Positions 11,309-46,685 of a stretch of DNA of 64,000 nt are shown here, piece after piece. A model generated the notes under the pieces. It was not told the origin of the DNA and did no database searches. It was given only the letters and a program-made list of their open reading frames with translations. The position numbers and the translations under genes were made by a program. How positions within the stretch are numbered: position 1 is the first letter of the stretch; each line of letters opens with the position of its first letter. The stretch is from Cliona cf. orientalis (lineage: Eukaryota > Porifera > Demospongiae > Clionaida > Clionaidae): contig OZ005693.1 of NCBI GenBank assembly GCA_963930775.1, forward strand, positions 2,232,001 through 2,296,000, read 5' to 3'.

Positions 11309-11537
11309 TATACGTGCTTTGCATACTAGCTACAAATATGCCTGTAGTAACGTCATGCATGCTATTGAAAATAAAGTGACCACGTCCACTTAGCCATATT
11401 ATGGAGTCTTGTGGTACATGGTTTCGCATCCTATTATACCCGGAAGTATTGTTTATTGGGTGGGTGTGGCTCATGTAGGCGTGTCCGATGGGATCGGCCG
11501 GCCGCGCCCAGCAGTGCAGTGTATACACGTAGCAGTG

Positions 11538-17200: not shown

Positions 17201-20200
17201 TTCACCCTCTCCTTTGTCACCTTTCCCATTCTCTTTCTCACTGGCTAATGGGACTGTGTTAACGTACACCGAATGCTCTCGGCTACCGTGCATGATACTA
17301 TCGCCATTCATACTGTCTGTGGAGAGACTCAGCTGTGATGGTCGCTGTCGGAAATTTGTAAGAGAAGCAGCAGATCCTGATGATGCTTTAGATATCGCTG
17401 GATCAGGTTTTGGCGGGCGTGGGGGAGGTGTTGTCACAGCTCGTACAGCAGCTGTCTGCTCTGGAATGGGGCCCTTTCCATTCTGAGGCTGGGTAGCAAC
17501 TGTCCTCCTAAGCATATCGATGAGGTGTTCCATCTGGTCGGAGTTGAAGCGAGAAAGCCTGTTCAATGTCTTTGATACACCCATGGGGCTCTCTGGGGAA
17601 GGGAGGGTGGGGTCAGATGATCTGGAGGATATCGGCTGGAGGAAACCAACTGATTGCATTAGTGTGTATTCTTCCTCTCTCAATCTATCCATTGACGACA
17701 GTTCTGGATTCAGCTTCGTAGATACCACAACTGTGCTGTTATTTTTTGTCAGGGTACCGGTAGTAGAATAGGTTGACACAGGTTCTGGTGAAGGTTCAGG
17801 CACCGTGTCCTGAATGTAATCATACCCGGGATCGGACTCTTGTGACAGCGGTCTTGGTTTAGGCTCATCCCTATAATGACCCGCTTCTTTAGCGCGTGGT
17901 TCAGGATCGTCAGATACAAAAGCCTTTTCTATCACATAATAGGATGAGTCAGGAACTGTTACAGCTGGTGGCAGCGCTGGTATCTTTGTTTTGTCTGAGG
18001 CGAAAGCTGTAGCCACAGTGCTAGCAGTGGTTGGTTGTGGAGGGAGATAGCCGTATGCTCTGTTATTCTGCATCTTGGGGAAATCCGTTCCTTCGCCACG
18101 ATTGGGTGACACTGATTGGTTGCCTCGCTGTTGTACGTGTACATGTGGTGATGTCACTATCTGCTGGTGTGGATGTTGCATACTAGCAATGTCAGGAGAA
18201 ATGAGCTGTGTAAGGGCCTTCACCCAGCTGTCGCGCTCATCCTGAAAGTTTGTTTTAAAAGGCAATTCTTTAGTTATTATAAACCATTACTTCGCCAAAT
18301 AGGCAATGGTTATACATACCTTTGACGAAGCTGTCAGTTTCAACTTTCCCTCTTTTCCCTTGACAGTGATTTCAAAAGAGTTATCACATTTACTTTTGTC
18401 TTGAGAGCTAGCACTAACATCAACAATATCGCTCAGTTTTACCTCCCCTTTCGCTTTCTAGTGATATAGAGTGTATACTTAAATTTGGAAAAAAAATTAT
18501 ATGCAATGAGATTCTGACCTCTTCATAGTACACTAAGCTGGCTGTTGAGTGAGATGTGGTTGAAATTTTGAAGGTATACTCTTTCTTGTTCACCGTTCCC
18601 CTCCCTCGTAGACTCCGGGATCTGCGAAGAGAGCCTGTTCCTCCTCCTTTGGACAACGTCAGCTTACCAGGCACCCCAACCTAGTTTGCATGGTTTATTA
18701 CATGGTTTGTCACAATCAGTAACATCAACAAGCTAGTATGCCAGTAAATGTACAAAGACTGTCTATATTTCTTATCATGCTATCAATAGTACTATACTAT
18801 AGTAAACTTTCTCTAATGTCATGCATCCACCTGTGCAATCACCTTCGATTGCTTGCACCCAGTTAATATACTATCTATAATTATTATACAGACACCACTG
18901 TCTGTATTCAGTATAATAACATCTTGACAATTCAATGTGTAATTAATCCATATAGAATAGGTTGGAGAACAACTTTCAGTTTCCTTTGATATCAAATTTT
19001 TATCCGATAATCTTGTATGACAAATTGAAAGCTCTACTAAATCATAATAATAGCTATTATGTGGATCAACACCTTGATAGGCTTAGGTAAACACTTAAGT
19101 TACACATGCAAGGTGTGGGTACACTGTGTATGAACTGAAAACATATGCATCCCCAGCTGGTGATGCTGCTGAATTTTACAGAACTACCCCTGCTGTAATC
19201 AACAATGGTAGCCTTATTATGCATGATAGCCTAGCTCATATCATGTGTCCCCAAAAATGTCACTGAAAAGGATAACTAACATTAGACATTCCTGACTTGT
19301 GTAGCTATGTGTCGGGAGGGTAAAATGCTATCTAAACTATTCCGAGTACTCTAATGGATCAGAAAATTGCTCATAGATTAGCTAATTACTTATTGTACCT
19401 TGATCTTCTCCGCAGATTGATCTGGCATGAAATTAGTGGTGGTATTTGGTGGGGAATTTTCACCAACCAGCTGCAAGTACTCGTGAGCTGTTTTCCCCTC
19501 GGGACCTATGCTCACGTATGGTGATAGGGATGCAACAGATTCAACTCGACTTTTGTGCGTGCTAGTACCATCAAGCATCTTGACCAAATCGAGCTTACTC
19601 ATGTGCTGGTAGTCGTGATAAAAATCGTCCTGCGAGTTTTTGACAGTTTTTGACATTTCTTCGAGGTTTTCGAGCACCTGTAGAGCACTAGGTCTCTCGT
19701 CAGTCATATTATCAAGACACCTCTCGATGATGTGGGTCAGTAGATGACGCTTGCCCAACTTTTGATGTAGGACGCTGATGTATTTCTCTCGTCGTTCAAT
19801 CTCACTCCTGGCACAGAGCTGCCTCTTGCTTTCCTCCATGTAGGTAGCAGGTAGAAGATCCCTGGGAAACTCCTGAATGATAGTGTAGAGGGCTAGATGA
19901 CCGTACGAGAACATATCAATCGTGGAATCATATCTTGCTCGTGTATGAACTGCCTCGGGTGGCATGTAAACTGCCGTTCCCGGCGTTTGTGTCATCGTCA
20001 TAGCTACCGTGTCGGAGTCGATGATAAGAGCATTTCCAAGATCGGTGATCTTAGCTTGCATGGCAAGAGTCAGGAGGATGTTACGAGTTGTCAGATCTCG
20101 ATGAATGATCTGTGGTTTGTGGTTGTGAAGGTAGACAAGACCCTTAGCGGTATCACTGAGGATGGACACCTTGAGGGAGAGGGGAATGTCTTCTTTCTTT

Positions 20201-20604
20201 TTGTTACTCTCATCGAGAAGATCTTCGAGGCTCATTGCAAGCTTCTCCATGACTAGTGTCGGGTGAGTGGCATTTGTGAAGATATGCAATCCAAGAAACT
20301 GGACAATGTTTGGGTGTCGAACACTTGTCATGATTCGACACTCTTCAACAAACCGACTGATGACTCTGTCCACCCCCTGCGTCCTGGGATCGAGCAGTGA
20401 ACTGTGTAGCTGTTTTGCAGCACACAGTGTTCCCTGGACGTAGAGCTCGTCCACCACTCCAAATGATCCATTTCCCAACCGTTTGCATTCAGCTGTCTGT
20501 CTCACTCCCTTGAGTAGGAATGGCTCTAGCTCAGGGTATGCTGCCAGTTGCTGGGGAAAGTCAATCCTGCTCAAAGTGTGAATGCTACTGAGTCTTGTCG
20601 CCAT
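14268..20604 (-). CDS. Dual-kinase protein: TKL-like kinase, PH domain, linker, tyrosine kinase
   Basis: Eleven exons join in frame into 1223 residues: 19399-20604, 18519-18680, 18320-18457, 17065-18241, 16884-16926, 16768-16826, 16537-16656, 15442-15627, 15048-15106, 14889-14981, 14268-14696. Kinase 1 (about 35-330) has LGNGSFGVV, Lys64, HRD 168-170, DLG (not DFG) 188-190 and PPE 215-217, so probably active and TKL-like. A PH domain (about 403-522) spans exons 2-4 and ends DERDSWVKAL. The linker (about 523-960) is rich in Ser and Pro, with PPPRPPKPD (SH3-ligand type) and DPGYDYIQD (possible phosphotyrosine site). The C-terminal tyrosine kinase has GQFGKVYK, HRDLAARN (1080-1087) and DFG from 1100. 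I know no standard family with this order. The start at 20604 is kept in copy B; an in-frame ATG at 20640 is the alternative. It begins 329 bases downstream of the ankyrin gene stop. Confidence 0.82.
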
Positions 20605-20932
20605 TATTGAGCAACTGTGATCGATGATGCAGTGTTGCACAAAGAGATAGCTTTAACGCATCTCGATATGTCGTTGCAACGATAAAATTTCGCCCACTCC
20701 GTACGTGTTGTCGCGATACGTACATGTTCGTTGACTCCACCCACTAATTTTGCGCGCCAAGGTAAGCGCCTCTAGATCTTTCTGTATAATAATAAATTTT
20801 TGACACAGCTACTAGACTAAGAGACACAGAATTCATCATATCCTTCTCGTAATTATAACATATAGCTAGGCCTATAGAGCTACCAAAATATGCAGTCTGA
20901 GAGTATAATTATTATGTATGCACCAAACACAA

Positions 20933-23900
20933 CTATTGACAGTCTGAGAATAGTTTGTATACAGCTTCCACATAGTTTTGATTACCAGCAGCTTTAAATA
21001 TATCAATTAGATTCCTGTAGGTAGCATTGGAGCCATTCTTTTGCTTCCATTTTTTCAGTGCTGCTCTCCTGAAAATAGACAACCATTAGTTTAATTATAC
21101 GCTGTGTCTACAGTGCCGGTACCGGCACCGCAATTTAAGCGTTATAGTGCCGGTAAGTCCATATAAAATACTGTACTCTTACGTAGCCCTAGTCCCCGCC
21201 CCCTCCTGCATATGGCAATATAAATTTGTACATAAATTTGCCGGCACTCTAGACACTGCGTTAATTATAATAATTATCTAGTGCATGCACGAATATTACA
21301 GTGTTCGCCTATACATTACATTATTATTGGCTCACGTTTGCAATTTCGGCTTCCCGGGGTATTCTGTCTTGATGGCAGCAACATCGACGTCTGTCAGTCC
21401 TAACCGCTCAGCGATGGGTCCCTCCCATTCATTAATGGCGTCAGCTATCAGGCCGAGGTGTGTTGAGACTCCACCACTTTCAGAGTCCAAACCTTGATCT
21501 AACTTTTGCCTATTATGTATAACATAGAGCGTTTCAATAACATTCTTTAGCATCTGCATACTAGATAATATCTTACATACTGACTTACTCGAATCCTGTT
21601 AGCTGAGCCTGGGTCGCCAAATCTTCAGAACCATGACTTCGAGTGCTCATATTTTCTACATTACATAGACCTTCAAGGACAAAACATTATCTTAAAACCA
21701 TGACTTTGTCGTATCGTTAGGCCAATTAAACTACATTATTAGTTTCTCGTCCACCCGTTTTTATATTTCTATGCGGGCCTATTCATTATTACCCCGCGCG
21801 CATGTGCAAGGGGTAATACCCCGTGCGCGCGCATGCGCAAGGGGTAATGTGTCTGTCGTCTATCGTTAGCACAAAAATCGTCAGATCTGGAGATCTAGGC
21901 ATCTGAGCGACTCGTAAATGCAACGTATCCGTAAATATTGTCGAAAAACTGGCTTCAGTATGCTTCGAATCGTTTGGCAAGGCCCATGAGCGTTGCAAAT
22001 ACTGCGTTTTGTTGGCCACACCTACGTACACTACCCACTATGTGCTCTCTGCTCATGTGCACAACCTGGCACAATGTGTCGGTATAGGTCGTCAACAGGC
22101 TGCTCGCATCATCGAGCTCTCTGATGCTCTATAGAGCTCTAGTTACCCCACGCACATGCGCAAGGGGTAATGTAATCGGTTTTGTCTGTCGTCATCGTCT
22201 GTCGTTAGCACAAAAATCGCCAGATCTGGAGATCTAGGCATCTGAGCTACTCGTAAATACAACGTATCCGTCAATATCGCCGAAAAACTGGCTTCAGTAT
22301 GCTTCGAATCGTTTGGCAAGGCCCACGAGAGTTGCAAATACTGCGTTTTGTTTGGCCACGCCTATGGACACTGCCCACTATGTGCTCTCTGCTCATGCGC
22401 ACAACCTGGCACAATATGTAGGTAAAGGTCGTCAACAGGCTGCTCGCATCATCGAGCTCTAGCCAGAGTCTCTGACCACAGATATGCTTTGATATCGACG
22501 ATGCAGGCGCGCGCGGGGTATGTGCTCTATAGAGCTCTAGTTACCCCGCGCGCATGCGCAAGGGGTAAAGTGATCTGTTGTTAGCACAAAAATCGCCGGA
22601 TCTGGAGATCTAGGCATCTGAGCGACTCATAAGTATAGTATATCCGTCGATATCGTCGAAAAACTGGCTTCATTATGCTTCGAATCGTTTGGCAAGGTCC
22701 ACAAGCATCGCAAATGCTGCATTTTGGCATTTTGTTGGCCACGCCTATGTACTATGGACACTACCCACCATGTGCTTTCTGCTCATGCGCACAACCTGGC
22801 ACAATATGTAGGTAAAGGTCGTCGACACTGCAGCGCGCGGGGTATGTGCTCCTTTGAGCTCTAGTTGTTGTCTGTCGTTAGCACAAAAATCGCCAGATCT
22901 GGAGATCTAGGCATCTAAGCGACTCGTAAATACAACGTATCGATCCGTTAATATTGCCGAAAAACTGACTTCAGTATGCTTCGAATTGTTTGTCAAGGCT
23001 CACGAGCGTTGCAAATACTGCGTTTTGTTGGCCACGCCTATGGACACTGCCCACCATGTGCTCTCTGCTTAGCTCATGCGCACAACCTGGCACAATATGT
23101 AGGTAAAGGTCGTCAACAGGGGGCTCGCATCCTAATCTGACCGGTCGACCATAGATAGAATCTCGTTATGTACAGACTTACTCATTGGTATTTAATCACA
23201 GGGTTTCCCCCAACCTGCCAAGGAGCATCAAGTTTAACCACTTTCGTATGGAATTCCACGCCCGTGCGCTCTGATAGTCTATGGATGTTCAATAGAAATT
23301 GTATGCGTAGTTAAATTTATAGTCTCTAGGATTTTGTTAAGTAGACGGAGACGACTGGATGCTGTTTTGACATCTCTGGAGCTTCAAGTCTTCAATAAAT
23401 CTCGACTCGATACGAAATTCATTAGGTGGTGGAGGTAGGCAATGCTGTGTTTGTATCTCATCCACCCCCAACTTCTATCTTCACTGGATTTATCGAACAT
23501 GAATATACTAGTGTCATGCAGGGCCTGTTTGGGGCGAGCCTGAGCTGAGCCTCTGTTGTACTCTGGGAGTAGCCAAAGACAAAGCCATAGCACGATAGAT
23601 CCTGAAGACCATGCACTGACATATATGTAGATGAAGCAGACAATGACAGTCATAGTGCCGTATAGCTGCATGACAGTTCCCTCCACGTACGTATCTACCC
23701 ATAGCCAATAGTCAAAATTATAGCGTAGCTGCCTCTCAGATTATCACAGGCTCAGTGAGCAGCACGTCTATCTTTATCACGTTCTTAGCTGCTCCTCGCG
23801 CTGTTGAGCTGACGATGAGTTTGTCTTTCTCTCTCTTCTGCTTTGGAGCTTTACTGTACTTCTCGATCTCGTCCCAAACGAGGGTAAATTTGCAATTCGC

Positions 23901-26900
23901 TAAATTAGAACGGTATATATACGTCAGGCATGAGAATGCGCAATAGACTATTTCGCGTTTATGTCCATAGCTGGCTATTATAGGGTGACCAGCTATGGTT
24001 ATACTTTGCAAGGCTCAGCTTGTCATGCAATAGCTCCGAGCAGCCTCGTACCCAGGCCCTTTCTCCTCCTCCTCAAAGGGCCTGGGTACGAGGCTATTAA
24101 AGTATCGACCTGTAATTTGGCGATAACTTCGTTACGAATTTTATAATATTATTATTATTATTATGCGTTTTGTAGGGACAGAATATTATTATTCGCTTCT
24201 GTATAGCAAGCTATATATTGAATGTGTGTGTGAGCGCAAGCGCAAGGGCGTGGAATTTCATACGAAAGGGACAGGTTGGGGGAACCCCTGTGATTAAATA
24301 CCAATGAGTAAGTCTGTACACAACGAGATTCCCATAGATACGCTCTGACATTGACGCTGCAGCGCGTGGGGTATGTGCTCTATAGGATTTACTCACACGA
24401 GATCAACTCTTGTGGCATTAACTCCCACGTGATCAATTCTTATAAGAGCAACCTTTTCGTCAAGTCAACTCCCAATTCTTATAAGACCAACTTTTCATCA
24501 AGTCAACTATCACAAAACCAACTGTTTTTAAATCAACTTACAAAAATATGGGAAATAACTAGCTAGGTAAGGTAAATAAATAGGCACATAGTTTAAAGTC
24601 CAGTAAGATGCTTGATGGCTGCCAGGTACTCATCAAGAGTCAAGCTTCCAGCATTAAAACGATCAAAGAGAGTCTATATTCGTTTCTCCTTCTCCCTCAT
24701 ACGACGTCTCCGTGGCCGAACAGTAGCTCCAGACCTGAAGTTCTGAATTTTGGCTTTGGTCACTGCTTCCACTCTTTGCATGTACTCAATCCACGCAAAA
24801 ATGTTTGGGTGAGGCTTGCTGATGACTTTCTTCATCCTGGAATGCCACCTTGCTGATGACTTTCTTCATCCTGGAATGCCACCCCTCAACATGGTTGTTG
24901 GTTCTGGGCTGATGCTGATTAAAATAGTTCCAGTGAATGGGTGGAAAGTTTCCATTGATCCAGGTGGCAGAGAAGTAGTCAACCAGCTCATCAACTCTTG
25001 GGATGCTCGGGGCATCCTGTTGGATGACAAGCCAGGCATGTTACGACGCAAATGCGATCCCGACCCGTTCGCAATACGCCGGTACGTACGCCGCCGCGAT
25101 CGCTGGACGATATGGATGGGCAGGCCCGTACACAGCCTTTCTCAAAGGGGGGTTCCATAGGGGGTGTGCCACCGTCTCAGACTATGTCTGCATTTATGCT
25201 GTGGGCATTAACCCAACTAGGGGGGTCTGGGGGCATGCTCCCCCAGAAATTTTTGGAACTTCTCATTGATTGTGATTCTGAGACCGTTCTGATAGTCATT
25301 ATCACTCTCTAGCATAGCTATTATACATCCGGTGTGCGTTATTTGGAAAGCAACGCTTATATTCGTGTAAAGAAGCATGTAAGTTAAGTTACACCTAGAT
25401 TGTTTCCAATTCCAATACTATGCTAAGTGGCCAAAAAAAGGGGGGTTCGAACGAACCCCCCCTGCGTACAGGCCTAATGGGAGGGGCTGGGAGGTCAGGG
25501 GATGGGTTGCGAATGGTTAGCATGCAGGGTTAGTGTGGGAGGGGCTGGGAGGTCCGGGGATGGGTTGCGAATGGTTAGCAGGGTTAGTCTCTAGGGTTTG
25601 CGTATACGTGGACTGGAGGGGCTGGGAGGTCTGGGGCTGGGTTGTGAATGGTTAGCAGGGTTAGTGTGGGAGGGGCTGGGTTGTGTAGGGTTTGTCTATA
25701 AAATAGTTGAAATAACGGCTGTCAGCAGCAACAACGGTGGTGGCCGAGTGGTTGGGCTCTTATGTATGGGACGGAATAGAGCGGGTTCGAATCTTGCCGT
25801 ACACTGACTTTTTTTCTTTTTTTTTTTCCCTGTCGAATTTTTCTAAGTGTTGATAGATCGCATTTGCGTCGTAACAAGGCAGTCCTGGCATACGTAAGTG
25901 GACAAAATGCCACTGATGCCATCATTTGCACGAACGCTTTCAAATCCCCACTGGCGCTGCAATATTTAGCAGCTAACCCTAGAGCTTGGACCTGGAAAAT
26001 TATATACAGTGTGTAGATGTCGGTTAGCTACATCATATTCTTGAACATACCTTCCTCCAGATAGCTTGCATAAAAATGGTAGTAACAGCCACGATGATAT
26101 ATGAGTTTGGGAAACTCATTGTAGAAGCTTGCACCATGGCCAACTCAAAATCACTCACAATCACTAGTGGATCAAAAGAGATACCTTTCACTAGAGCAGC
26201 ATCTTTGAGTAGCATGAACACTCTATTATACATCTGCCTCTCCTTGTTGGGCAAAAGGCAATAAGCCATTGGAAATGTATGGCCCTAGAGCAAAATGTGG
26301 ATTGTGAATACCTATAGATAGCAAATATAGTGATATTTATACGTAGTTAACAGAGGAAAACTTACTTGAAAAAATAATGAAGGGCACGTGGAGAATGTGC
26401 TATCAATGTAGAAGGCGTCTGCATCAGACATAAGTCTGAGGTTTTCTTCAGTGGCAAAGATCAGGATCTTGTCATCATCTCCGTCATCAACGAGGAGGAA
26501 GTCTTCCCCACTTTGAGTCTTAGTTAACCTGGTTGAGAGGTTGACATCTCTTCTGTGGATCGGGAGAATTGGAGTGTTTTCATGTCTAGCTCTGTACAGA
26601 GATGACCTGATTGACTCGAGACTTGGTAGTTGTGCCAGCGCACCTGCAGAGTTCTGCTCTTGGCTAAGTGCCTCCAATTGGTCATCGTAGATGATGTTTA
26701 TGGAGGTGCTCTCATCTCTGGCCCTTTTCCTCATTCCTACGATGGCTAGCTGAGTGGTGGTCTGAGCTGGATTTGGTGGGTGGTTGTGCTCTCTTCGTAC
26801 AATCACGCTGCTTCCCTCTGAAGTGGCTCTTGCTAAACATCCAGCCTTGTGATTTTGGCATCTCCAGAATCGTAAGCCATTTGCACCATCCCTTATCTTT

Positions 26901-29900
26901 GTGTAGATATGACTCTTGAAGTGAAGGGTCTTTCCTCCTCGATTTGTATCAACAAACTGAGCCATTGCAGAAAATATTGAGTGTGCATTATGCTCAGAAT
27001 GTCACTGGCTTAAATAGAAAAAGCTCACTACTCAATACCTGTCGATACATATTGACCTTTGGTAAGCACTAATTACTCAAAAGACAAGGTCAAAATAGAA
27101 AAAGCTCACTACTCAATACCTGTCGATACCTGTTGACCTTTAGCAAGCACTAATTACTCATATCAATACCTAGTTGATTTGAGGAGTTGAGTTGATTTCT
27201 TACAGAGTTGATCCCATGAAAGTTGATGTCCTGATAGCTAGTTGACATACAAAATTGCTCTTGTAAGAATTGATCACGTGGGAGTTGATCACATAAGAAT
27301 TGATCTCGTGTGCACACACCCTCTATAGAGCTCTAGTTCAATATTATGGCATTTTGAGGGTGTGGTTTCCTGGAATCGCCCAAATAATTAGCAAAAAAGA
27401 GGTGAGGCTGGTGTTTCAAGGCAATAATGAAGGCAGATGCGGTAGGTAGAAACAGACGCGGGAGGTGACGAGAATCAAGTTTGTGTGGCCTTAGCTACCT
27501 TATTTGTACCAATATTTCTATTCTAGTTTTGAGCACGGTTAAATGCCTCAAATTTCATACTGCGTGCAATAGGGGCACACCCCCCCTCCCGCATTCACCA
27601 CTACAGACTGCTTCATTATCAATGATGCACTCCCCCTGATATTGAATCCTAGATAGAATCCTGGGAGGAATTATGATAATAATATTATTATACCTATATA
27701 CATACAGTACCTAAACCCATTCCCACACTATTCATCATTAGAAATGCCAGGATAATTAATAGTGATAATCGCTTACCCCCAAAAGTGTATTTCCTGAATA
27801 TATTATCGAGATGTGATAAATCAAGTAATTTTCGTCCACTGACGCTGGCAACTTTTTTCTTTCCTTCTTTGATAACACTTTCAATTGCGGTTATCTCAAA
27901 TAGTTTATCTTCATTCATAAAAGAAGATATATCATCCGATTTTAGCAGAAAATGGTGGAGTGAGACAATGCTACAAAAGTCAGCTTTGGCTTGCAAGATC
28001 TTACTAATGATTTCACTCAATATATTTGCCCATTCATTTGAATCTTTTTCTGATTTCGTGATTATAACCATTCCTTTGTTATCATTAACCATTTCAAAAA
28101 TACATTCCACTCCTTCCTCCATGAGCCAGTGGATTCCATTCTTCCACATGGTACAACGACGATTTTGAGCTGAGATTTCATTAGATTCTGTTATTTTGCA
28201 GTTTGCAATAGGAAGGGCAAAAGCAAATGCTAGTCTCAGGAGGAGTACGTGCAAAAACCGAGATGGAAAGTAATCTAACTTTCCTGTGCACTTGGCATAC
28301 CATCCAATGCTGAAGTTAAGTAGTGGGTCATTGGGCCAATTGCTTTGCTCACTATCCAACTTACATAATGCGGGAAAATAGAGCAGGGTTTTCTCAGAGG
28401 TACTCTTTGACACTTCTGAGTTATGAAGTCCCACATCAGCACAAGTAAACTCTTGGCAGTACTGGAGTTGAACTAAACATTCTTTAGTGATATGCTTTGG
28501 AAGTAGCCTAGCTAAGTGGCTTTCTGGGAGGATTCCCATGTTAGCATACTGAGGACTATTTGGAGAGCTGAATTTTTCCATGGCGGATTTTGAAAAGAGA
28601 TTTTGATGCACTTCATGTGTCAATGAAGACAGATCTAGTAATAAGAGATAATTTTCAAGCGTATCTTCACTGTGTCCAATCATCATCAATAAACCAATGT
28701 CGTGAAGCTCCTTCACAATGGGAAAGAGTGAATCAGCTATGGTAGGTAAACATATACCAGTATCCTTGATATGGCTCAATAGATCTTGAAATTTGCAAGC
28801 AATAGCATTACTGAAGTCTTTTTCTAGCAATCCATGAAGCAGGGATGCCTCATATGAAATACTGCAAGGAGGTGTATCCTTAGATATTTGCTGCAAAATA
28901 TTTTTTATACTTCTTGTTGAATAAGGCCAAGAGCAGTTGGATGATACCACTTTAATGATATTGAAAATTTCATATTGATTCTTATGGTCATGTAAATAAT
29001 ATTGTCTCATACTCTCCACTTTACTAACACAGTCAGTTGAACTCAGTCGGTCTGAATGGCTTAAGATCAATATAATTTTCAGTCTGCATTTGCTGTCCAA
29101 AGCTTTACCATGATAGGCGACAAATGATAACCAGTAGCCAATCTCATTGTGAATGATCACATTATCTTTCCTCAAATCAGCCACAATAAAACAGACGTTG
29201 CTTCCAACTGTCAAATCGGAAATAATTTCAAGAATCGATGCATGTGAAGAATAGTATTCCCTATCTCCAGCAAAGTCATAATACAGCAACCGTCCAGCCT
29301 TCCTACTTTGTTGAACTGATGGAACTATCCCAGCTGTACGAGGTGGGACATCAGCTTCAGTTACAGTGAACAAGGAAGAAAACCATCTTGAAGTTCGCTT
29401 TAATGATTCAACAAGAGTACTCTTACCAGATCCAGGATTTCCTAAAATGAATACTCTAGTGATACACTGTTGACCTGAATACTTTTGTAAGGATTTAGCT
29501 CGAAGTTCTTCATATTCGTGTTGTATTCTTTTGTGTTCACTAGTTATATATTCTCTAATCACTTCTTTAGTGGAATCTTCTGTTGCAAGATTAAGTGCAG
29601 TCTTTCCTGCCTTATTCCGAACATAGACAGGGGCATGGTATTCATATAACAGAAATCTTACAGATTCAGTCTGTTCAGCTAAAGATGATAGGTGCAAAGG
29701 AGTATTACCATCTTCATCTACACAATGCAAAGATAGATGGAATTTCTCTGTCAGAGTTTTGGCAGTTAAGTTGTGACCGTTTGCAAGAGCATGATGTAAC
29801 AAACTACGTTTTTTGAAGCCCAAGGAATTAGGGCTTACATGAAGATCTACAATTAAACTAATCACTGTACTAGTATGACCAGCTTGTACTGCCACATGGA

Positions 29901-32900
29901 TTGGTTGATCATCGTTAGCATCCTTGGTAGACACATCAGCTTTAAATTCTGAAACACACATTCTAATGAGGGCATGACCATTTTCAGTTGGTGATTGAGA
30001 ACAAAGCAAGTGAAGTGGAGTTTGTCCACTTAAATTCCTGCTATCAATAGGGCAGTCATACTTCTTAACAAGTTGAGCAATCACTTCTTTGTGGCCTCGA
30101 GAAGCTGCTACATGAACTGCTTTATTTCCTTGATCATCCAAAACAGAAGAAGAATCTAAGTGGAAATCTGAAAGAAGTACATATATCAAGTCAATAGATC
30201 CACGCTCACAAACTTGTCGCAAAAGTTTACTGTCGATTGTACGCAAATTGGAATTAAACAATTCAAAAAAAGTACGTTCATGTCCTGTTAAAAATGCTTT
30301 CTTAAGTGGAGTGTCACCATGGCCATCTTTATCTCTGACTGTTATATCTGCCTTGTTGGCCATTAGGAATTTAGCTATTCTGGTATGACCACCGATACAA
30401 GCACAGTGGAGAGCAGTCTGCCCTTGAGTGTTTCTACTGTCTATTTGACATTGGTTGCCATACTCAGCAATCAGTAATTCAGCTATTTCATATTGCCCAT
30501 GCTGAGCTGCAATGTGAAGGAGTGTGTTATCATATTCATCAATGAATACTTTCTCATCTTTATCTCCAAGAGCTTTATTTGCAATGAGTTTGACTATTCT
30601 AACATGACCACGCATACAAGCATAGTGGAGAGCACTCAGCCCTCGACGGTTTTTATGGTCTATTGGGCATTGGTTGCTGTAATTAGTAATCAAAAATTCA
30701 GTTATTGTATATTGCCCATGTTCAGCTGCAGTGTGAAGAATTGTGTTCCCATCTTCATCAGGACAAGCTGGGTCATGGTTGAATTTTGATATTAGTTCCT
30801 GTAGCACTGTTTTAAATCCTCCAGCAGCTAGTTGGTGAAGGAGTGGTTTGGACTCAACATCTCTGACATGAGGTTTGAGGCCATACTCTGTAGAGAGGAT
30901 ATGTACAGCTTCAGCATGATCACGTCTCTTAATTAAAATATCCAAAGGAGTATTGCTATCCTTGTCTAGAGCATTACAGAATTTTTTTCCACCCTCGCAT
31001 TCGGAGACTAGTACTACTGAAACATCAAGTTGACTGAGAGAGCATGCCATGTGAAGTGGTGTTTGTTTATATTTATTTTTATCATTAACAGGACAGTTGT
31101 ACTTTTTAACTAGCAGAGTAACTATTTGTTCATGACCTAGAAGAGCTGCTATATGAATCGCTTTATTTCCTTCATCATCCAATACTGAAGAAGGGTCTAA
31201 GTGGAAATCTGAAAGAAGTACATCTATCAAGTTAACATATCCACGCTCACAAACTTGTAACAAAAGTTTATCGTCAATTTTACGCAAATTGGAATTAAAT
31301 AACTCAAAAAAAGTAGGTTCATGTCCTTTTAAAAATGCTTTCTTTAGTGGAGTGTCATCATCTTCATCCCTGACAGTTATATCTGCCTTGTTGGCAATAA
31401 GGAATTTAGCTACTCTAGTATGACCACCAATACAAGCACAGTGAAGAGCAGTTTGCCCTTGAGAGTTTCTATGGTCAATTGGACATAGATTGCTATAGTC
31501 AGCAATTAGTAGTTCAGCTATTTCATACTGTCCATGTTGAGCTGCAACGTGAAGGAGTGTATTACCACAGTCATCAACTAATGCTTCTTCAGCTTTATCT
31601 CCAAGAACTGCTTGTTTATTTGCAATGATTTTAACTTGTCGCAAAAGTTTACTGTCGCTGGTGTGAAAATTGGAATCAAATAACTCAAATAAAGTAAGTA
31701 CATGTCCTGTTTTAAATGCCTTCTTAAGTGGAGTGTCACCATCTTCATCCCTGATAGTTATATCTGCTTTGTTATCAACAAGGAATTTAGCTACTCTAGT
31801 ATGACCACCGATACAAGCACAGTGAAGAGCAGTCTGCCCTTGAGAGTTTCTATGGTCTATTGAAAGTTGACTGCTGTGACTAGCAATTAAAAACTTAGCT
31901 ATTTCATATTGGCCATGCTGAGTTGCAGTGTGAAGAATTGTGTTCCCATCTTCATCAGAACATACTGGGTCATAGTTGAAGTTTGTTATTAGTTCCTGTA
32001 GCACTGTGGTAAATCCTCCAGCAGCTAGTTGGTGAAGGAGTGGTTTCGACTCAACACCTCTGACATGAGGTTTGCAGCCTTTTGTAGAAAGGATATGTAC
32101 AGCTTCAGCATCACGTCTCTTAATCAAAATATCCAAAGGAGTATTGCTATCCTTGTCTAGAGCATTACAGAATTTCTTTCCACCCTCGCATTCAGAGACT
32201 AGTACTATTGAAACACCAAGTTGACCGAGAGAGCATGCCATGTGAAGTGGTGTCTGTTTATCTTCATTCTCAATATTAACGGGACACTTGTACTTTTCAA
32301 TTAGCCGAGTAACTACTTGTTCATGACCTAGAAGAGCTGCTATATGAATCGGTTTATTTCCTTCATCATCCAATACTGAAAAAGGGTCTAAATGGAAATC
32401 AGAAAGAAGTACATCAATCAAGTTAACATATCCACGCTCACAAACTTGTAACAAAAGTTTATCGTCAATTTTATGCAAATTGGAATTAAACAACCCAAAA
32501 AAAGTACGTTCATGTCCTGTTAAAAATGCTTTCTTTAGTGGAGCATCATCATCTTCATCCCTGACAGTTATACCTGCTCCGTTGTCAACAAGGAGTTTAG
32601 CTACTCTAGTATGACCACCGATATAAGCACAGTGAAGAGCAGTCTGCCCTTGAGAGTTTCTATGGTCTATTGGACACTGGTTGCTATAGTCAGTAAATAG
32701 TAATTCAGCTATTTCATGTTGTCCATGCTGAGCTGCGATGTGAAGGAGTGTGTTACCATAGTCATCAACTAATGCCTTCTCATCTTTATCTCCAAGAGCC
32801 TTATTTGCAATGAGTTTGACTATTCTGGCATAACCATGCATACAAGCACAGTGGAGAGCAGTCAGCCCTTGGCAGTTTCTGTGGTCCATTGGAAATTGAT

Positions 32901-35900
32901 TGCTGTGATTAGTAATTACAAATTCAGCTATTTCATATTGCCCATGCTGAGCTGCAATGTGAAGAATCGTGTTCTTATTTTCATCGGAACATGCTGGATC
33001 ATAGTTGAACTTTGATATTAGTTCCTGTAGCACTGTGGTAAATCCTCCAGCGGCTAGTTGGTGAAGGAGTGGTTTGGATTCAACATCTCTGATATGAGGT
33101 CTGAGGCCATACTTTGTAAACAGGATATGCACAGCATTAGTATCACCTCTCTTGATTAAAAGATCCAAAGGGGTATTGTCATCCTTGTCTAGAGTATTAC
33201 AGTTACCACCAGAGACTAGTACTATTGAAACATCAAGTTGACCACGAGAGCATGCCATGTGAAGTGGCGTCCTCTGAGCTTTATTCTTGACATCAACTGG
33301 ACAATTATACTTCTTAACAAGCAGAATAGCTACTTGTTTGTGTCCTCGAAGAGCTGCTATATGAATTGCTTTATTTCCTTGATCATCCAAAATAGAAGAA
33401 GGATTCAAGTGGAAATCTGAAAGAAGTACATCTATCAAGTTAACATATCCACACTCACAAGCTTGTAGCAAAAGATTACTGTCGATTTCAGTATGAAAAA
33501 AAAAATTAAACAACTGAAATAAAATATGTTCATTTCCTGTTAAAAATGCTTTCTTAAGTGGAGTGTCACCATCCTCATCCCTGACAGTTATATCTGCTTT
33601 GTTGTCAACAAGGAGTTTAGCTACTTCAGTATGACCACCGATACAAGCACAGTGAAGAGCAGTCTGCCCTCGAGAGTTTCTACAGTCTATTGAAACTTGG
33701 TTGCTGTAATTAGTAATCAAAAATTTAGTTATTTTATATCGCCCATGCTGAGCTGAAGTGTGAAGAATTGTGTTCCCATCTTCATCAGAACAAGCTGGGT
33801 CATAGTATATTAGTTTCTGTAGCACTGTGGTAAATCCTCCAGCAGCTAGTTGATGAAGGAGTGGTTTGGACTCAACACCTCTGACATGAGGTTTGAGACC
33901 ATACTTTTTATAAAGGATATGTACAGCTTTAGCATCACGTCTCTTGATTAAAAGATCCAAAGGGGTATTGTTATCCCTGTCTAGAGCATTATAGAATCTT
34001 TTGTCACCACCTACCATGCATTCAGAGATTAGCACTTTTGAAACACCAAGATGACCATGAATACATGCCATATGAAGTGTCGTCTGCTCATATCTATTCT
34101 TAATATCAACAGGACAGTCATATTTGGTGATGAGTAGCCTTGCTAGCTCTTTATGACCACCCATACAGGCCATGTGGAGAGGAGTGTTACCACTGTCATC
34201 AGCTGAGAGTGGGTCTAATTTAAAATCTGTCATTAAAATCACAGCTAGCTTAGTGTGTCCTTTCTTACAAGCGAAGTGCAGGAGTGACCTACCTTCAAAT
34301 CCCTTAACCTGAGGACTACAGTCAAACTCAGTGATTAACATTTGTACTATTGACGCTTGTTCATTCAGAACTGCTACACATAGTGGTGTACTACTCTGAT
34401 AATTACGTGCATTTTTGTCTGCTTTGAATTCAGAGATAAGCATTCGGACAACACTGAGGTGCCCAGAAGAACAAGCTAGGTGAAGTGGTGTCTCATTCTC
34501 TTCATTATTTATATTAACAGGATAGTTACATTTGGTGATGAGTAGTCTTGCTAGCTCCTCATGACCACTTAAGCAGGCCATGTGGAGAGGAGTGTTACCA
34601 CAGTCATCAGCTGACATTACATCCAAGCTGAAATCTATAATTAGCATTTCAGCTAGCTTAATACTTCCACTCCAACAAGCCTCATGCAATAGTGATCTGC
34701 CATCATATCCTGTAACCTTAAGACTAGAACCAAGCTCAGTGATTAGTGCCTGGACAGTTTCCACATGTCCATCCTTTGCTGCTTTGCTGACAGCTGTATC
34801 ATCATAATTGCAATCTCGTTGAGTTGCATCAGCTTTAAATTCAGAAACAAGCATTCCAACGATCATACTACTGTGACCAGATGAACAGGCTTTGTGAAGT
34901 GGTGTCTCTTTGTCTTTATTCTTAACATCAACAGGACAGTTGTATTTGGTGATGAGTAGTCTTGCTAGCTCCTCATGACCACCCAAGCAGGCCATGTGGA
35001 GAGGAGTGTTACCACTGGCATCAGCTGACAATACATCCAAGCTAAAATCTATGATTAGCATTTCAACTAGCTTAATATTTCCACTCCAACAAGCCTCATG
35101 CAGTAGTGATCTGCCATCATATCCTGTAACCTTAGAACAACCAAGCTCAGTGATTAGTACCTGAACAGTTTCCACATGTCCACCCCTTGCTGCTATGCTG
35201 ACAGCTGTATCATAATTGTGATCTCGTTGAGTTCCATCAGCTTTAAATTCAGAGATAAGCATTCTAACGATACTACCGTGACCAGATGAACAGGCTATGT
35301 GAAGTGGTGTCTCTTGAATATTGTTTTTAACATCAACAGGAGAGTTATATTTGGTGATGAGTAGTCTTGCTAGCTCCTCGTGACCACCCCAGCAGGCCAT
35401 GTGGAGAGGAGTGTCACCATTGTCATCAGCTAAAAATATGTCCAAACTAAATTCTATGATTAGCATTTCAGCTAGCTTAATGCTTCCACTCCAACAAGCC
35501 TCATGCAGTAGTGATCTGCCATGATATCCTGTAACCTTAAGACTACAACCAAGCTCAGTGATTAGGGCCCGGACAGTTTCCACATGTCCACCCTCTGCTG
35601 CTTTGCTGACAGCTGTATCATTATTGTCATCTCTTTGAGTTGCATCAGCTTTAAATTCAGAGACAAGCATTCTTACGATATTACTGTGACCAGATAAACA
35701 GGCTATGTGAAGTGGTGTCTCATTATCTTCATTCTTAACATCGACAGGACAGTTGTAGTTGGTGATGAGTAGTCTTGCTAGCTCCTCATGACCACCCCTG
35801 CAGGCCATGTGGAGAAGAGTATTACCGTCATCATCAACTGAGAGTGGATCTAGGTCAAATTCAGTGATCATGAGTTGTACCATTTCTATGCTGCCCCCCA

Positions 35901-38850
35901 TCACTGAACTATCAATTACATCAATTTCATCAATATCTGCTTTGTACTTAAGCACAAGTGTTCTTACAACAGATACATGACCACAGGAGCAAGCTAACCA
36001 TAGTAGTCTCGGCAAATCAGTGCTCTCAAGGGAGCTGTACTTATTAATGAGTAAACACACTACCTCTTCCTGGCCATGTGAGGCAGCAATGTGGAGGGGG
36101 GTCTGGTCTACTGCATCAGTATCCATTGGACTGATGCCATACTTTTCAATGAGAGTGGTAACAAGTTTAATATTTCCAATAGCACATGCAAAATGAAGCA
36201 ATATTCTACCTTGATAGCCTTTGATGTTTGGATTACAAGCACAGACAGTTATCAAATAATCCACAGTGTCTATTTGTCCTTGGGACACTGCTCTATGGAT
36301 GGGAGCATTATTAAAAATATCTTTCATGTATATATCGGCTCCATTGGATATTAATATGTGTACAATGTGTTTGTGACCAAGTACACAGGCAAGATGTAGT
36401 GGAGTTTCATGGTTGGCATTTGTATCATTGATGTCAATAATTTTCTCCTCTATCATTCTCTGAACATCATCTACTCTTCCCAACCTTACTGCAGTATGAA
36501 GAGGACTCTCTTTATCAGCCTGTACTGGTCCATCTATCCACAGTCTGAGACCATCACTGTATAATAATTTGTTAATCAATTGCTGAGTATCAAATCTACT
36601 TCTATCATAAGCATTTTCGTAATTTGAATCTTGAATTAATGGATCAGCACCAAATGCTACTAACAGTTGTACAATAGGACTATCCCTTTTGGAGCAAGCC
36701 AGGTGTAGTGGAGTCTCATGTTTAGAGTTTAGAATATTCACGTCTACCAGTTGTTGGATCAAGATCTCTCTAACATCTTCTATCTGGCCTTGCCTTATGG
36801 CAACATGGAGAAGACTATCACCATTAAAAGTTTTTGGACACTGAAAATCCATGGTGAGTAACAGCATTCTAACTATACTACTGTGACCATTTGAACGGGC
36901 GTAGTGAACTGGCGTCTCTTGAATCTTATTTTTAACATCAACAGGACAGTTGTATTTGGTAATGAGTAGTTTTGCTAGCTCCTCATGACCATACCGACAG
37001 GCCGTGTGGAGAGGAGTGTCACCACTATCATCAGCTGACCATACATCCAAGCAAAAATCTATGATTAGCATTTCAACTAGCTTAATGCTTCCGCTCTGAC
37101 AAGCCTCATGCAGTAGTGATCTAACCTTAGGACTACGACCAAGCTCAGTGATTAGGGCCCGGACAGTTGCCACATGTCCACCCTCTGCTGCTTTGCTGAC
37201 AGCTGTATCATTATTGTGATCTCGCTGAGTTGCATCAGCTTTAAATTCAGAGATAAGCATTCTAACAATACTGCTGTGCCCAGATGAACAGGCGCAGTGA
37301 AGTGGTGTCTCTTGAATATTGCTTTTAACATCAACAGGACAGTTGTATTTGGTGATGAGTAGTCTTGCTAGCTCCTCATGACCACCCCAGCAGGCCATGT
37401 GGAGAGGAGTGTCACCATTGTCATCAGCTAAAAATATGTCCAAACTAAATTCTATGATTAGCATTTCAGCTAGCTTAATGCTTCCACTCCAACAAGCCTC
37501 ATGCAGTAGTGATCTGCCATGATATCCTGTAACCTTAGGACTACAACCAAGCTCAGTGATTAGGGCCCGGACAGTTTCCACATGTCCACCCTCTGCTGCT
37601 TTGCTGACAGCTGTATCATTATTGTCATCTCTTTGAGTTGCATCAGCTTTAAATTCAGAGACAAGCATTCTTACGATATTACTGTGACCAGATAAACAGG
37701 CTATGTGAAGTGGTGTCTCATTATCTTCATTCTTAACATCGACAGGACAGTTGTAGTTGGTGATGAGTAGTCTTGCTAGCTCCTCATGACCACCCCTGCA
37801 GGCCATGTGGAGAAGAGTATTACCGTCATCATCAACTGAGAGTGGATCTAGGTCAAATTCAGTGATCATGAGTTGTACCATTTCTATGCTGCCCCCCATC
37901 ACTGAACTATCAATTACATCAATTTCATCAATATCTGCTTTGTACTTAAGCACAAGTGTTCTTACAACAGATACATGACCACAGGAGCAAGCTAACCATA
38001 GTAGTCTCGGCAAATCAGTGCTCTCAAGGGAGCTGTACTTATTAATGAGTAAACACACTACCTCTTCCTGGCCATGTGAGGCAGCAATGTGGAGGGGGGT
38101 CTGTTCTACTGCATCAGTAGCCATTGGACTGATGTCATACTTTTCAATGAGAGTGGTAGCAAATTTAACATTTCCAACACCACATGCAAAGTGAAGCAGT
38201 GTTCTACCTTGATAGCCTTTGATGTTTGGATTGCAAGCACAGACAGTTATCAAATAATCCACAGTGTCTATTTGTCCTTGGGACACTGCTCTATGGATAG
38301 GAGCATTATTAAAAAAATCTTTCATATATATATTGGCTCCATTGGATATTAATATGTGTACAATGTATTTGTTTCCAAGTGCACAGGCAAGATGCAATGG
38401 AGTTTCGTGGTTGGCATTTGTATCATCGATGTCAACATTTTTTTCCTCTATTATTCTCTGAATATCATCTAGTCTTCCCAACCTTACTGCAGTATGAAGA
38501 GGACTCTCTTTATCAGCCTGTACTGGTCCACCTATCCATAGTCTGAGACCATGACCAAATAATAGTTTGTCCATCAATTGACTAACATTAAAACTACTTC
38601 TATCATGAGCATCATAATCATTTGAGTCTTCAATGTATGGATCAGCACCAAATGCGACTAACAGTTGTACAATAGGACTATCCCTTTTGGAGCAAGCAAG
38701 ATGTAATGGAGTTTCTTGTTTAGAGTTCAGAATATTCACGTCTGCCTGTTGTTGGATCAAGATCTCTCTAACATCTTCTATCTGACCTTGCCTCACAGCA
38801 ACATGGAGAGGACTGTCACCATTAAAAGTTATTGGACTCTGAAAGTCCAT
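20933..38850 (-). CDS. Giant ankyrin-repeat / Roc-like GTPase / COR-like / Death-domain protein, copy A
   Basis: Exon 1 is 27777-38850 (11,074 bases, no stop); exons 2-4 are 21589-21670, 21336-21509 and 20933-21068. Phases match (3821 residues). Residues 1 to ~3060 are ~90 ankyrin repeats (TPLHLACSxGH pattern). A GTPase follows: P-loop GNPGSGKST near residue 3135, DFAGD as the switch-II motif, SHSD where NKxD is usual, so guanine specificity is uncertain. Next is a ~350-residue COR-like region (CKFQDLLSHIKDTG..., WKNGIHW) and a C-terminal Death domain (about 3725-3815; INEWEGPIAERLGL). DAPK-family Roco proteins share ankyrin, Roc, COR and Death domains but carry a kinase too; here kinases lie in the next gene. 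Likely a cytosolic scaffold or switch in death or immune signalling (inference). The start is uncertain: the frame is open to an ATG at 38922, and upstream exons are possible. Confidence 0.85.
21787..23148 (+). repeat. Tandem array of a ~350-bp repeat in the ankyrin gene intron
   Basis: Four head-to-tail copies begin near 21787, 22142, 22541 and 22863. Each unit has the core words CAGATCTGGAGATCTAGGCATCT, GAAAAACTGGCTTC, TTTGGCAAGGC, GGCCACGCCTATGGACACT, GCACAACCTGGCACAAT and CGCGGGGTATGTGCTC (given separately), and copies start with the near-palindrome TTACCCCGCGCGCATGCGC followed by AAGGGGTAA. The fourth copy is broken by two transposons and resumes at 24332-24385 and 27321-27338. A fifth, inverted copy lies at 40028-40400 inside the helicase transposon. 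The unit encodes nothing evident. Confidence 0.8.
23158..24331. mobile_element. Non-autonomous Mutator-like element with 9-bp target duplication
   Basis: Inverted ends of about 115 bases (GAATCTCGTT..ACAGACTTACTCATTGG at the left; its inverse at 24228-24331) enclose 1174 bases. The direct repeat CCATAGATA flanks both sides (23149-23157 and 24332-24340), a 9-base target duplication typical of MULEs. Removing the element restores the ~350-bp repeat unit. The interior has no recognisable transposase and holds a foldback element at 24042-24095. Confidence 0.85.
24042..24095. repeat. 21-bp perfect hairpin inside the non-autonomous MULE
   Basis: AGCCTCGTACCCAGGCCCTT plus one T is followed by a 12-base pyrimidine-rich loop and its exact inverse. 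The outer bases AGCCTCGTnCCCAG are also the terminal bases of the 7-kb helicase transposon at 39637-46685, so this may be a minimal relative of that family. Confidence 0.7.
25040..25875. mobile_element. 836-bp element with 20-bp perfect inverted ends, inserted in the MULE gene
   Basis: GTTACGACGCAAATGCGATC at 25040-25059 is matched by its exact inverse at 25856-25875. The MULE reading frame is interrupted exactly here, supporting insertion. Inside are three to four imperfect ~60-base repeats (GGGAGGGGCTGGGAGGTC.. with GGGTTGCGAATGGTTAGCA) at 25479-25687 and a Pol III promoter-like segment. No clear target duplication was found. Confidence 0.65.
25734..25829 (+). ncRNA. tRNA-like Pol III promoter (A box, B box, T-run): tRNA relic or SINE head
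   Basis: TGGCCGAGTGG at 25741-25751 fits the A box and GGTTCGAATC at 25784-25793 the B box, 43 bases apart, followed by T-rich runs at 25809-25827 that could end Pol III transcripts. The T-arm GCGGG/CTTGC folds, but the anticodon stem and acceptor stem do not form properly, so a working tRNA is unlikely. Confidence 0.5.
34852..38850 (-). repeat. Internal 1998-bp tandem duplication inside the ankyrin exon
   Basis: Sequence at 36852-38850 recurs at 34854-36852 with a constant offset of 1998 bases (666 codons, about 20 ankyrin repeats). For example, TAGGGCCCGG is at 35563 and 37561, and GATGTTTGGATT at 36223 and 38221. The part at about 35200-36090 versus 37200-38090 is nearly identical over hundreds of bases, while 36100-36850 versus 38100-38850 differs more. 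The second unit even repeats the N-terminal start sequence (LLTMDFQ) in mid-protein. Confidence 0.85.
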
Positions 38851-39636
38851 GGTGAGTAGTGGCTTTAGGTTAGCACAATACCGTGAGTCAAAGAAGCAGT
38901 TAGTTATTACAAAGTCTTGCACGGAGAAGTGTTAAATGATTATTACATCAAACACGATGTGATTCAGGGTTAGCTAGGATCTCTGTATCTCTCTATACGG
39001 ATAAGAATATATGTGCAAGTGAACAGAATTTGTTTGTAATTAGTTGAATATCTTAAGTCAATTATATATGGACTGATCCACCCCATATAGTATGACATTG
39101 TGCTTTGTGGTCAATAACTCTGAACAGTTATCATATGACCATTAATTTTTACACACGACATAATGCACATTGTCATAATAATCACTGTTTTTACAGAATA
39201 GTTTGACAATGTGGTATTTACTATAATAAGACATACATAACATTTTTGGTCTGTAGCACTTTCCAGACTCCACTCCCACCCACCCACCTCCCTTCGATAC
39301 ATGTATACAGTGGAACTTCTCATAATGGACCTTCCCAGGAGTGGCCACCCACTACAGTATTATAACAGACAACCACTATGGAACGGATTAAATTTGCCAT
39401 AGGCTTAGCAGGGTTTTATACAGGATTTTATCCCAGGGGGGGAATACAATCGATGATAATACTATCACGGCGTGCATAGCACGCCCAAACCAGGGGGTCT
39501 GGGGGCATGCCCCCCCCCCCCCCCCCAGGAAAATTTTTAATTTTATAACCTCTGAGACTGCTTCCTGAGACCACATCTCAGTTTGGTTTGTTACTGCACC
39601 TTTTCACCTTTTTCATGACCTATCTTGTGGGTATAG
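38851..39636. other. Upstream flank of ankyrin gene A with repeat fragments
   Basis: No gene is seen. At 39306 TACAGTGGAACTTCTCATAA resembles the left end of the pogo-like MITE at 48088. At 39486-39540 is a dispersed motif, GGGGGTCTGGGGGCATGCCC followed by a C-run and AGAAAATTT-like text. Related text is at 25220-25255 and 57058-57095. The promoter of the ankyrin gene should lie here but no element is clear. Confidence 0.4.
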
Positions 39637-42845: not shown

Positions 42846-42903
<58 letters not shown>

Positions 42904-46048: not shown

Positions 46049-46685
46049 TTTCGGTTGCTCGGGTAGAAGTATGGTTTAAATTTGAAACCGAATTTTGGCA
46101 GTATACATGTACGTACATTTTTGTATACTATGCTATACTGGAGCGGTCCCGAGTCATAATCATTATTATTTATGTAAATTAGCTATAATTTGGATTTACC
46201 TGTTGGCGACGACCGATACCAACGTCTCACAGATAAACGATCAGTAGCGCGCTGACTTTGGAAAGACATGAAGAACACATCGATAGCAGAGCTTGGTGTT
46301 GCCGTGATAGAAAGGACACCTCGTCTCCCAGATGGCCGCAGTGGCGTACGGATTCTTTTCGTTCGTCCACTATCATGTAGTAGCTAATAGAACCCTTAAA
46401 GGAATATTCTTTTTTACTTCTGCCAACATGAGACACCACGAGGGCAGGGAGCCATTTTCCCGGCTACTTCGCGGTATAGAGAACGCTATGCGCACGCGTA
46501 CGCGCTAGCGCGATCGATCGATCGCGTGGGCGACCCACCGCATGACGTCACTGAACGCGCGCTAGCGCCCACGCAGTCTGAACAGCGCGTGCGCGCGTGA
46601 TCATCACGTGACATTGGATCCCAGGCTCCCCCTCTTTTCTCTCGCGTGCGTTGAAAAAGATCGGGGAGGCTGGGGACGAGGCTAG

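Follow-up and report, generated by a model that had tools for sequence, protein, structure and literature searches.

A predicted ankyrin-Roc-Death receptor gene and a putative dual-kinase gene side by side in a tandem array of the sponge Cliona cf. orientalis

Introduction

DAPK is a single chain with an N-terminal CaMK-type kinase, and in LRRK-type ROCO kinases the kinase follows Roc-COR, again within one chain; to our knowledge, the animal precedents for the parts considered here are single-chain proteins of these two sorts. We analyzed a stretch of 64,000 nucleotides, referred to as the window, from the sponge Cliona cf. orientalis (GenBank assembly GCA_963930775.1, contig OZ005693.1, hereafter C5; C5:2232001-2296000), in which similar parts are distributed over two neighboring genes: a receptor gene with ankyrin, Roc and Death domains and, behind it on the same strand, a kinase gene that probably encodes two kinases. 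The window holds two of 23 tandem receptor copies (A and B), each with a kinase gene behind it. The reading we favor, at a probability of roughly 0.45, is that a sensor gene stands beside a constrained signaling kinase and that both act in one pathway.

DAPK1 resembles this locus in combining a kinase with ankyrin, Roc and Death domains, whereas here two genes are involved, a TKL kinase is combined with a tyrosine kinase, and the kinase lies downstream. ROCO kinases (LRRK1/2, Dictyostelium Roco4) share the succession of Roc(-COR) and a TKL kinase, which the gene order here mirrors for the LRRK type; the Roc domain matches LRRK2 and the first kinase matches Roco4. They differ in that the kinase of the sponge locus is a separate gene, a Death domain is present, the second kinase is a tyrosine kinase, and neither LRR nor WD40 was found in the parts scanned. 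With IRAK and RIPK, the locus has in common a TKL kinase, closest to IRAK4, and a Death domain, which is found next door; here the two are on separate chains, the Death domain ending with its own stop codon in the upstream gene. JAK-type proteins and the plant tandem-kinase proteins are comparable in having two kinase domains in one (here predicted) protein. In contrast to these, a PH domain lies between the kinases, and no FERM-SH2 was seen ahead of them, the first coding exon opening with the TKL kinase.

Among sponges, expansions of Death-like domains combined with ankyrin or kinase domains are described for Amphimedon (PMC8195603). Together with the NLRs of Dysidea (PMC12909245), they share with the array on C5 the lineage-specific expansion of Death-fold cytosolic proteins; those systems are based on TRADD-N or NACHT, and no ROCO-Death/dual-kinase pairs are described in the accessible parts of the two papers. 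Brown-algal LRR-ROCO proteins are likewise a variable-repeat ROCO family proposed as immune receptors, as far as the accessible text goes (PMC11378527); there, LRR exons are shuffled and the family comprises LRR-ROCO only, while here the ankyrin repeats grow within a single exon. The accessible portion of a study of holozoan tyrosine kinases contains no such dual kinase (PMC8662651), and a literature search, conducted largely short of full texts, yielded no description of ROCO-Death/dual-kinase pairs.

Results

Architecture of the receptor and kinase genes

Both genes of pair A are encoded on the minus strand. The receptor gene runs from 38850 to 20933, with its stop 329 bases ahead of the kinase ATG at 20604; in B, also on the minus strand, the Death stop ends at 59400 and the kinase ATG is at 59140, a distance of 260. 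An earlier note on this DNA had proposed exactly this pairing, and the order, strand and spacing are borne out, with stops and ATGs located in both copies. Its description of the spacing as tight and conserved fails beyond the window, as the distance from receptor stop to kinase ATG varies between 259 and ~1282 bases across ten units.

Exon 1 of receptor A (27777-38850) is an open frame containing an ankyrin array (38850-29503, ~3116 amino acids) followed by Roc and a putative COR (29502-27777), and ends with a donor at 27777. It is followed by a short linker exon (21589-21670; GT/AG borders, compatible phase) and two exons that encode the first part of the Death domain (21336-21509) and its second part with the stop codon (20933-21068). 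Joined at the predicted borders, the full model comprises 3821 amino acids free of internal stops. Receptor B consists of exon 1 (60178-63976; ankyrin, Roc and putative COR) and exons 2-4 (59940-59841, 59773-59600 and 59532-59400), which encode the linker, the Death domain and the stop. Intron 1 is far longer in A (6.1 kb) than in B (237 bp). Within the ankyrin exon of A, internal tandem duplications (34096-38858) comprise 408-bp units and two 2-kb copies that are 93% identical, which indicates that the repeat array grows within this single exon.

Genome searches were carried out on 216.8 Mb in 149 contigs; the published odCliOrie1.1 assembly comprises 217.17 Mb in 307 scaffolds according to the accessible part of its description (PMC12639293), so that small scaffolds may be missing. 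Since these searches score the best candidates only, all counts refer to the matches listed.

The earlier label of the receptor as ankyrin-Roc-COR-Death is supported for ankyrin, Roc and Death. Ankyrin (1407.7 bits in A) lies far over its Pfam cut-off, and Death, on exons 3 and 4 joined in A, reaches 39.7 bits in A and 39.1 bits in B against a cut-off of 22.6. Roc in A scores 22 bits, under the Pfam cut-off of 27; it matches the LRRK2 Roc domain (E-value 0.0006), and when its profile is compared with those of unambiguous Roc domains from this genome, the probability is 94%, with the G-motifs aligned. As in DAPK, ankyrin, Roc and Death are therefore found in one receptor chain, with Roc sub-threshold and the exon joins predicted. 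COR was confirmed neither by sequence, nor by profile, nor by a structure model. It is missing from the Pfam list of A even at E-values as high as 10, and for eight receptor members it does not figure among the 25 Pfam families shown out of 32; the array is absent among the 150 listed matches (290 candidates) of a COR-A genome search; the profile comparison of the receptor region covers Roc only; and the AlphaFold model of the Roc-COR part is too poor for a fold search (predicted local distance difference test score, pLDDT, of 36.5). In the accessible data on brown-algal ROCOs, the COR profile was matched in just 18 of 111 (PMC11378527).

The downstream gene is probably one dual-kinase gene with an IRAK/RIPK-like kinase, a PH domain, a linker and a tyrosine kinase, as predicted from its exons with a putative join between PH and tyrosine kinase. 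In A, all exons lie on the minus strand. Exon 1 (19399-20604) encodes a kinase of the TKL type (Pkinase, 126.5 bits), for which phmmer returns IRAK4 as the nearest match bar one entry labeled EGFR, and Roco4 is also matched; what we take to be the K, HRD, DLG and PPE motifs can be read in it. Its coding similarity to two diverged relatives at C5:2645876 and C12:6405101 ends just ahead of a GT donor, located after AEKIK, whose position is common to the three copies. When it is joined at this donor to the next two exons (18519-18680 and 18320-18457, both spliced in frame), the reading frame stays open and takes in a PH domain, which scores 41.2 bits with Pfam PH in the spliced exons. Because similarity ends at the donor in three diverged copies and the PH join is in frame, we dropped the alternative that the 404-amino-acid frame is a complete single-kinase gene with a conserved stop. 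The last part of PH and a tyrosine- and proline-rich linker follow (17051-18241, 3' border unfixed; 8 genome stretches match, its own included), then a tyrosine-kinase N-lobe exon with approximate borders (15437-15652), of which a similar stretch exists in B, and a C-lobe exon (14271-14696; PK_Tyr_Ser-Thr, 149.4 bits; tyrosine kinases by phmmer). No Death domain was detected in the scanned kinase exons or the PH segment.

A first kinase followed by a tyrosine kinase is also seen outside the array. Among the 27 relatives there that match the first kinase best, 16 have a tyrosine kinase listed on the same strand no more than 10 kb downstream (14 distinct ones, as two pairs share one), two more have one listed within 19 kb, and nine have none listed. 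Together with the in-frame kinase-PH join, these relatives lend in silico support to the term dual kinase used in the earlier note.

A tandem array with extensive copy decay

A genome similarity search with split matches joined revealed 23 receptor relatives in one run on C5 (2.25-2.63 Mb), all on the minus strand. A kinase lies directly behind 11 of them (A, B and K3 to K11), and all 11 close kinase copies (93-97% nucleotide identity) show the same order and strand, across two kinds of Death end. The first kind, a single domain over two exons, is present in A, B, K5, K6, K11 and 10 unpaired units; the second, a tandem pair of other Death domains, in K3, K4, K7, K8, K9, K10 and an unpaired unit that is diverged and broken. 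The notion that half of the kinase-adjacent receptors are devoid of a Death domain was ruled out, since such receptors have the tandem pair. Below the receptor at 2454350 and in parts of the array, the absence of a kinase was assessed by kinase similarity search only, with the region read to 2651999. At the edge of the array, two further, more diverged copies of the kinase (2645876 and 2650744) have no array-type receptor listed upstream. Among the 13 array matches covering most of the query without a stop, the length of the Roc-holding frame varies from 872 to 3745 amino acids.

Copy B is broken in both genes and looks dead. Its receptor has one in-frame stop in the Roc-COR region (60751-60749), and its kinase exon 1 (58244-59140, minus strand) is disrupted by two frameshifts, one of them near the ATG, and by the loss of ~320 bp relative to A; its tyrosine-kinase exons lie further downstream (54811-54620 and 53988-53581). 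Kinase exon 1 is likewise broken in K5, K7, K9 and K11, giving five of 11 copies, and is open in A, K3, K4, K6, K8 and K10. Among these six, frame breaks affect the tyrosine-kinase exons of K4, K8 and K10 and the receptor of K3.

Divergence and selection differ between receptor and kinase

Differences between units amount to 3-7% (mean 4.6%) in the kinase exons, compared with 6-30% (mean 19.5%) in the Roc-COR regions. For A and K6, the synonymous divergence (dS) is 0.13 in the kinase and 0.91 in the compared part of Roc-COR. The much lower divergence of the kinase implies that kinase copies have spread or been homogenized across receptors and that the units were not simply duplicated whole. 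Receptor A itself is a mosaic: its Roc-COR belongs with the tandem-Death group, but its Death end is of the single kind. The earlier claim that the pair was duplicated as a unit is correct in that A and B are paralogous, but the divergence histories of kinase and receptor differ.

Selection was estimated from ratios of non-synonymous to synonymous change. Pooled over the six copies with an open exon 1, the ratio of the respective proportions (pN/pS) amounts to 0.04 for the kinase domain, compared with 0.22 for the tail. The corresponding ratio of substitution rates (dN/dS) is 0.19-0.36 in Roc-COR, calculated pairwise on eight of 16 aligned rows (two of them, K6 and K10, partial) with stop codons skipped, and reaches 0.42 and 0.57 in two ankyrin comparisons. 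Such a gradient fits a variable sensor ahead of a constrained enzyme; relaxed constraint on the repeats would look alike.

Recurrence of the neighborhood elsewhere in the genome

The earlier note held that its proposal would suffer if no conserved adjacency existed elsewhere. We found that a ROCO-Death/kinase neighborhood recurs in the same genome, with members of a second ROCO-Death family. The first part of the Death domain in this family shares ~60% identity with that of A, but the Roc-COR regions of the two can hardly be aligned. The search for this family listed 79 matches, 75 of which are ROCO stretches and were used for counting (four short Death-only rows were left out; the tyrosine-kinase list was slightly shorter than in the jitter test described below). 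Among the best 44, a listed kinase within 6 kb lies downstream on the same strand in 14 cases, on the opposite strand in none and upstream on the same strand in six; within 10 kb, these numbers are 15, 1 and 8. The counts remain unchanged when all 75 stretches are considered. The 14 adjacencies are located on C7 (9), C8 (2), C15 (1) and C19 (2), and both members on C19 are followed by a relative of the first kinase (48-49% identical) at distances of 761 and 1534 bases.

In a count that started from Death domains, 12 of 93 Death matches outside the array were followed on the same strand by a kinase no more than 5 kb away (11 kinases in all), compared with a mean of 2.9 and a maximum of 8 in 1000 trials in which positions were jittered. 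This sample comprised 93 Death places, 55 of 106 first-kinase matches and 96 of 150 listed tyrosine-kinase matches, after array matches, most second Death halves, repeat matches inside one frame and the weakest matches had been left out.

Several further regions of the genome contain related genes. At C7:1.88-2.15 Mb, a ROCO-Death cluster includes nine members with a tyrosine-kinase-like frame 1.7-3.5 kb downstream, which may be fused genes. On the plus strand of C19 (5.56-5.63 Mb), ten first-kinase and eight tyrosine-kinase relatives largely alternate, likely a second expansion of dual kinases. A ROCO protein at C2:1192100-1193900 has a barely similar Roc-COR and a Death domain ~60% identical to that of A, possibly as a result of Death exon shuffling. 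A genome search with the Pfam Death profile gave 1292 candidates, 150 of which were scored; if most are real, the expansion is large.

One pathway or neutral adjacency

If receptor and kinase act in one pathway, the fast-changing ankyrin array would bind a ligand or a guarded protein, and this binding would alter the GTP state and dimerization of Roc-COR. The Death domains could then oligomerize, and the resulting platform might activate the neighboring dual kinase, either directly or via a Death-domain adaptor; serine/threonine and tyrosine residues would then be phosphorylated as part of an immune or cell-death response. The adjacency of the two genes may in this case serve their co-regulation. 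A joint pathway or a role in immunity is plausible, with most pairs damaged. We are considerably more doubtful about the specific proposal that a near-invariant dual kinase and hypervariable ankyrin-Roc-COR-Death sensors, paired as genes, make up an animal immune module that was assembled repeatedly with different ROCO families on several chromosomes of this sponge. Were it true, the module would be comparable in function to split ROCO kinases and to the sensor/tandem-kinase pairs of plants.

Several observations weigh against a shared pathway. Twelve of the 23 array receptors are without a kinase, and A and K6 are the only two of 11 pairs in which no break was seen in either gene in the parts examined. 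COR is unconfirmed by sequence, profile and model. Distance matrices of receptor and kinase are weakly correlated (Mantel r 0.27, p 0.054; 10 of 11 units, with K9 left out as it has no receptor sequence and broken copies kept in). The recurrences are not independent, because one tandem cluster on C7 holds 10 of the 12 Death and nine of the 14 ROCO cases. On C19, no tyrosine kinase is listed between either ROCO-adjacent kinase and the next first-kinase copy, so that these kinases may not be dual. Finally, none of the 47 receptor relatives outside the array (20 at 44-61% and 27 at 29-33% identity) has a listed kinase within 10 kb, and four of them, read for 2.6-3.8 kb past the Death domain (one of these domains assigned by eye), gave no match to the kinase queries.

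The main rival explanation, which we consider nearly as likely, is that the arrangement is a neutral by-product: a dual-kinase gene would have landed once in a duplicating receptor array and been copied and homogenized by unequal crossing-over and gene conversion, its adjacency being functionless. The array does recombine, as seen from the 2-kb ankyrin duplications at 93% and the mosaic of Roc-COR and Death in A, and hitch-hiking would account for kinase exons that are 3-7% diverged across receptors that are 6-30% diverged. The many receptors without a kinase, the five broken copies of kinase exon 1 and the scarcity of break-free pairs are also in line with it. It is at odds with the reappearance of this gene order beside another ROCO family on C7, C8, C15 and C19 and with the strong purifying selection on kinase copies whose exon 1 is open.

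Should the one-pathway reading be right, ROCO GTPase with kinase and Death with kinase, combinations usually found in single animal proteins, would be linked as separate, shuffled neighbors in an early-branching lineage. The pair would also be a candidate route by which a sponge couples a diversified cytosolic sensor to tyrosine phosphorylation. The 11 paired and 12 unpaired receptors provide controls within one array.

The kinase 5' flank and read-through

The earlier note had further suggested a polycistronic or read-through transcript, and a fused Ank-Roc-COR-Death-kinase protein would be a variant of the same idea. The short gaps of 259 bases in B and 328 bases in A (20605-20932, minus strand) would suit it, whereas the Death domain is followed by a stop codon in both copies and no splice acceptor common to all copies was seen by eye ahead of the kinase ATG. 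The poly-A hexamers AATAAA and ATTAAA are absent from the gap of A and from eight of the 10 gaps examined. We judged this uninformative, because five of 10 receptors without a kinase also have neither hexamer within 500 bases.

The 5' flank of the kinase occurs in two types, each with promoter-like blocks. In one, GCGCATGCGC is found in all seven gaps examined (K3, K4, K6, K8, K9, K10 and K11), and the block around it is nearly invariant in six aligned flanks. In the other, TTGGCGCGCAAA is present in all three gaps (A, where it lies at 20760-20749, B and K5); its pattern has two matches in the window with up to one mismatch, compared with 0.10 expected. We take these blocks to resemble NRF1 and E2F sites. 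The pattern TGCGCATGCGC has a raw count of 18 matches over 32 loci; eight of them precede kinase copies, that of K7 among them, and the other 10 lie elsewhere. The flank goes with the kinase and not with the Death type, since K6 and K11 pair a single-Death receptor end with the flank type that is otherwise associated with tandem-Death units. Blocks that move with the kinase point to a promoter of its own and, short of proof, speak away from read-through, which in view of these flanks and of the missing shared acceptor we regard as improbable.

The fission of an ancestral DAPK into two neighboring genes, the remaining explanation, shares with the earlier note's image of DAPK parts spread over two neighbors a correct inventory (ankyrin, Roc, Death and kinase) and can be dismissed with near certainty, as kinase type and gene order rule out a split DAPK: the first kinase is nearest to IRAK4 and other TKL kinases and not to the CaMK type, it lies in the next gene downstream instead of N-terminally in the same chain, no kinase is listed within 10 kb of any receptor relative outside the array, and dual-kinase relatives also occur where no ROCO gene is listed.

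Other features of the window

Intron 1 of receptor A contains a remnant of a FLYWCH zinc-finger mobile element (26315-27001, minus strand; Pfam FLYWCH, 38.6 bits), presumably MULE-like. Between the two units lie a DUF6589 frame (42744-43529, plus strand) and a DEAD-box helicase frame that appears RecQ-like by eye (44086-46075, minus strand). A 37-bp tandem repeat with 18.7 copies spans 50196-50885. Exons of a short-chain dehydrogenase are located at 5873-6190 and 11394-12541, with a 184-bp stretch repeated at 93%.

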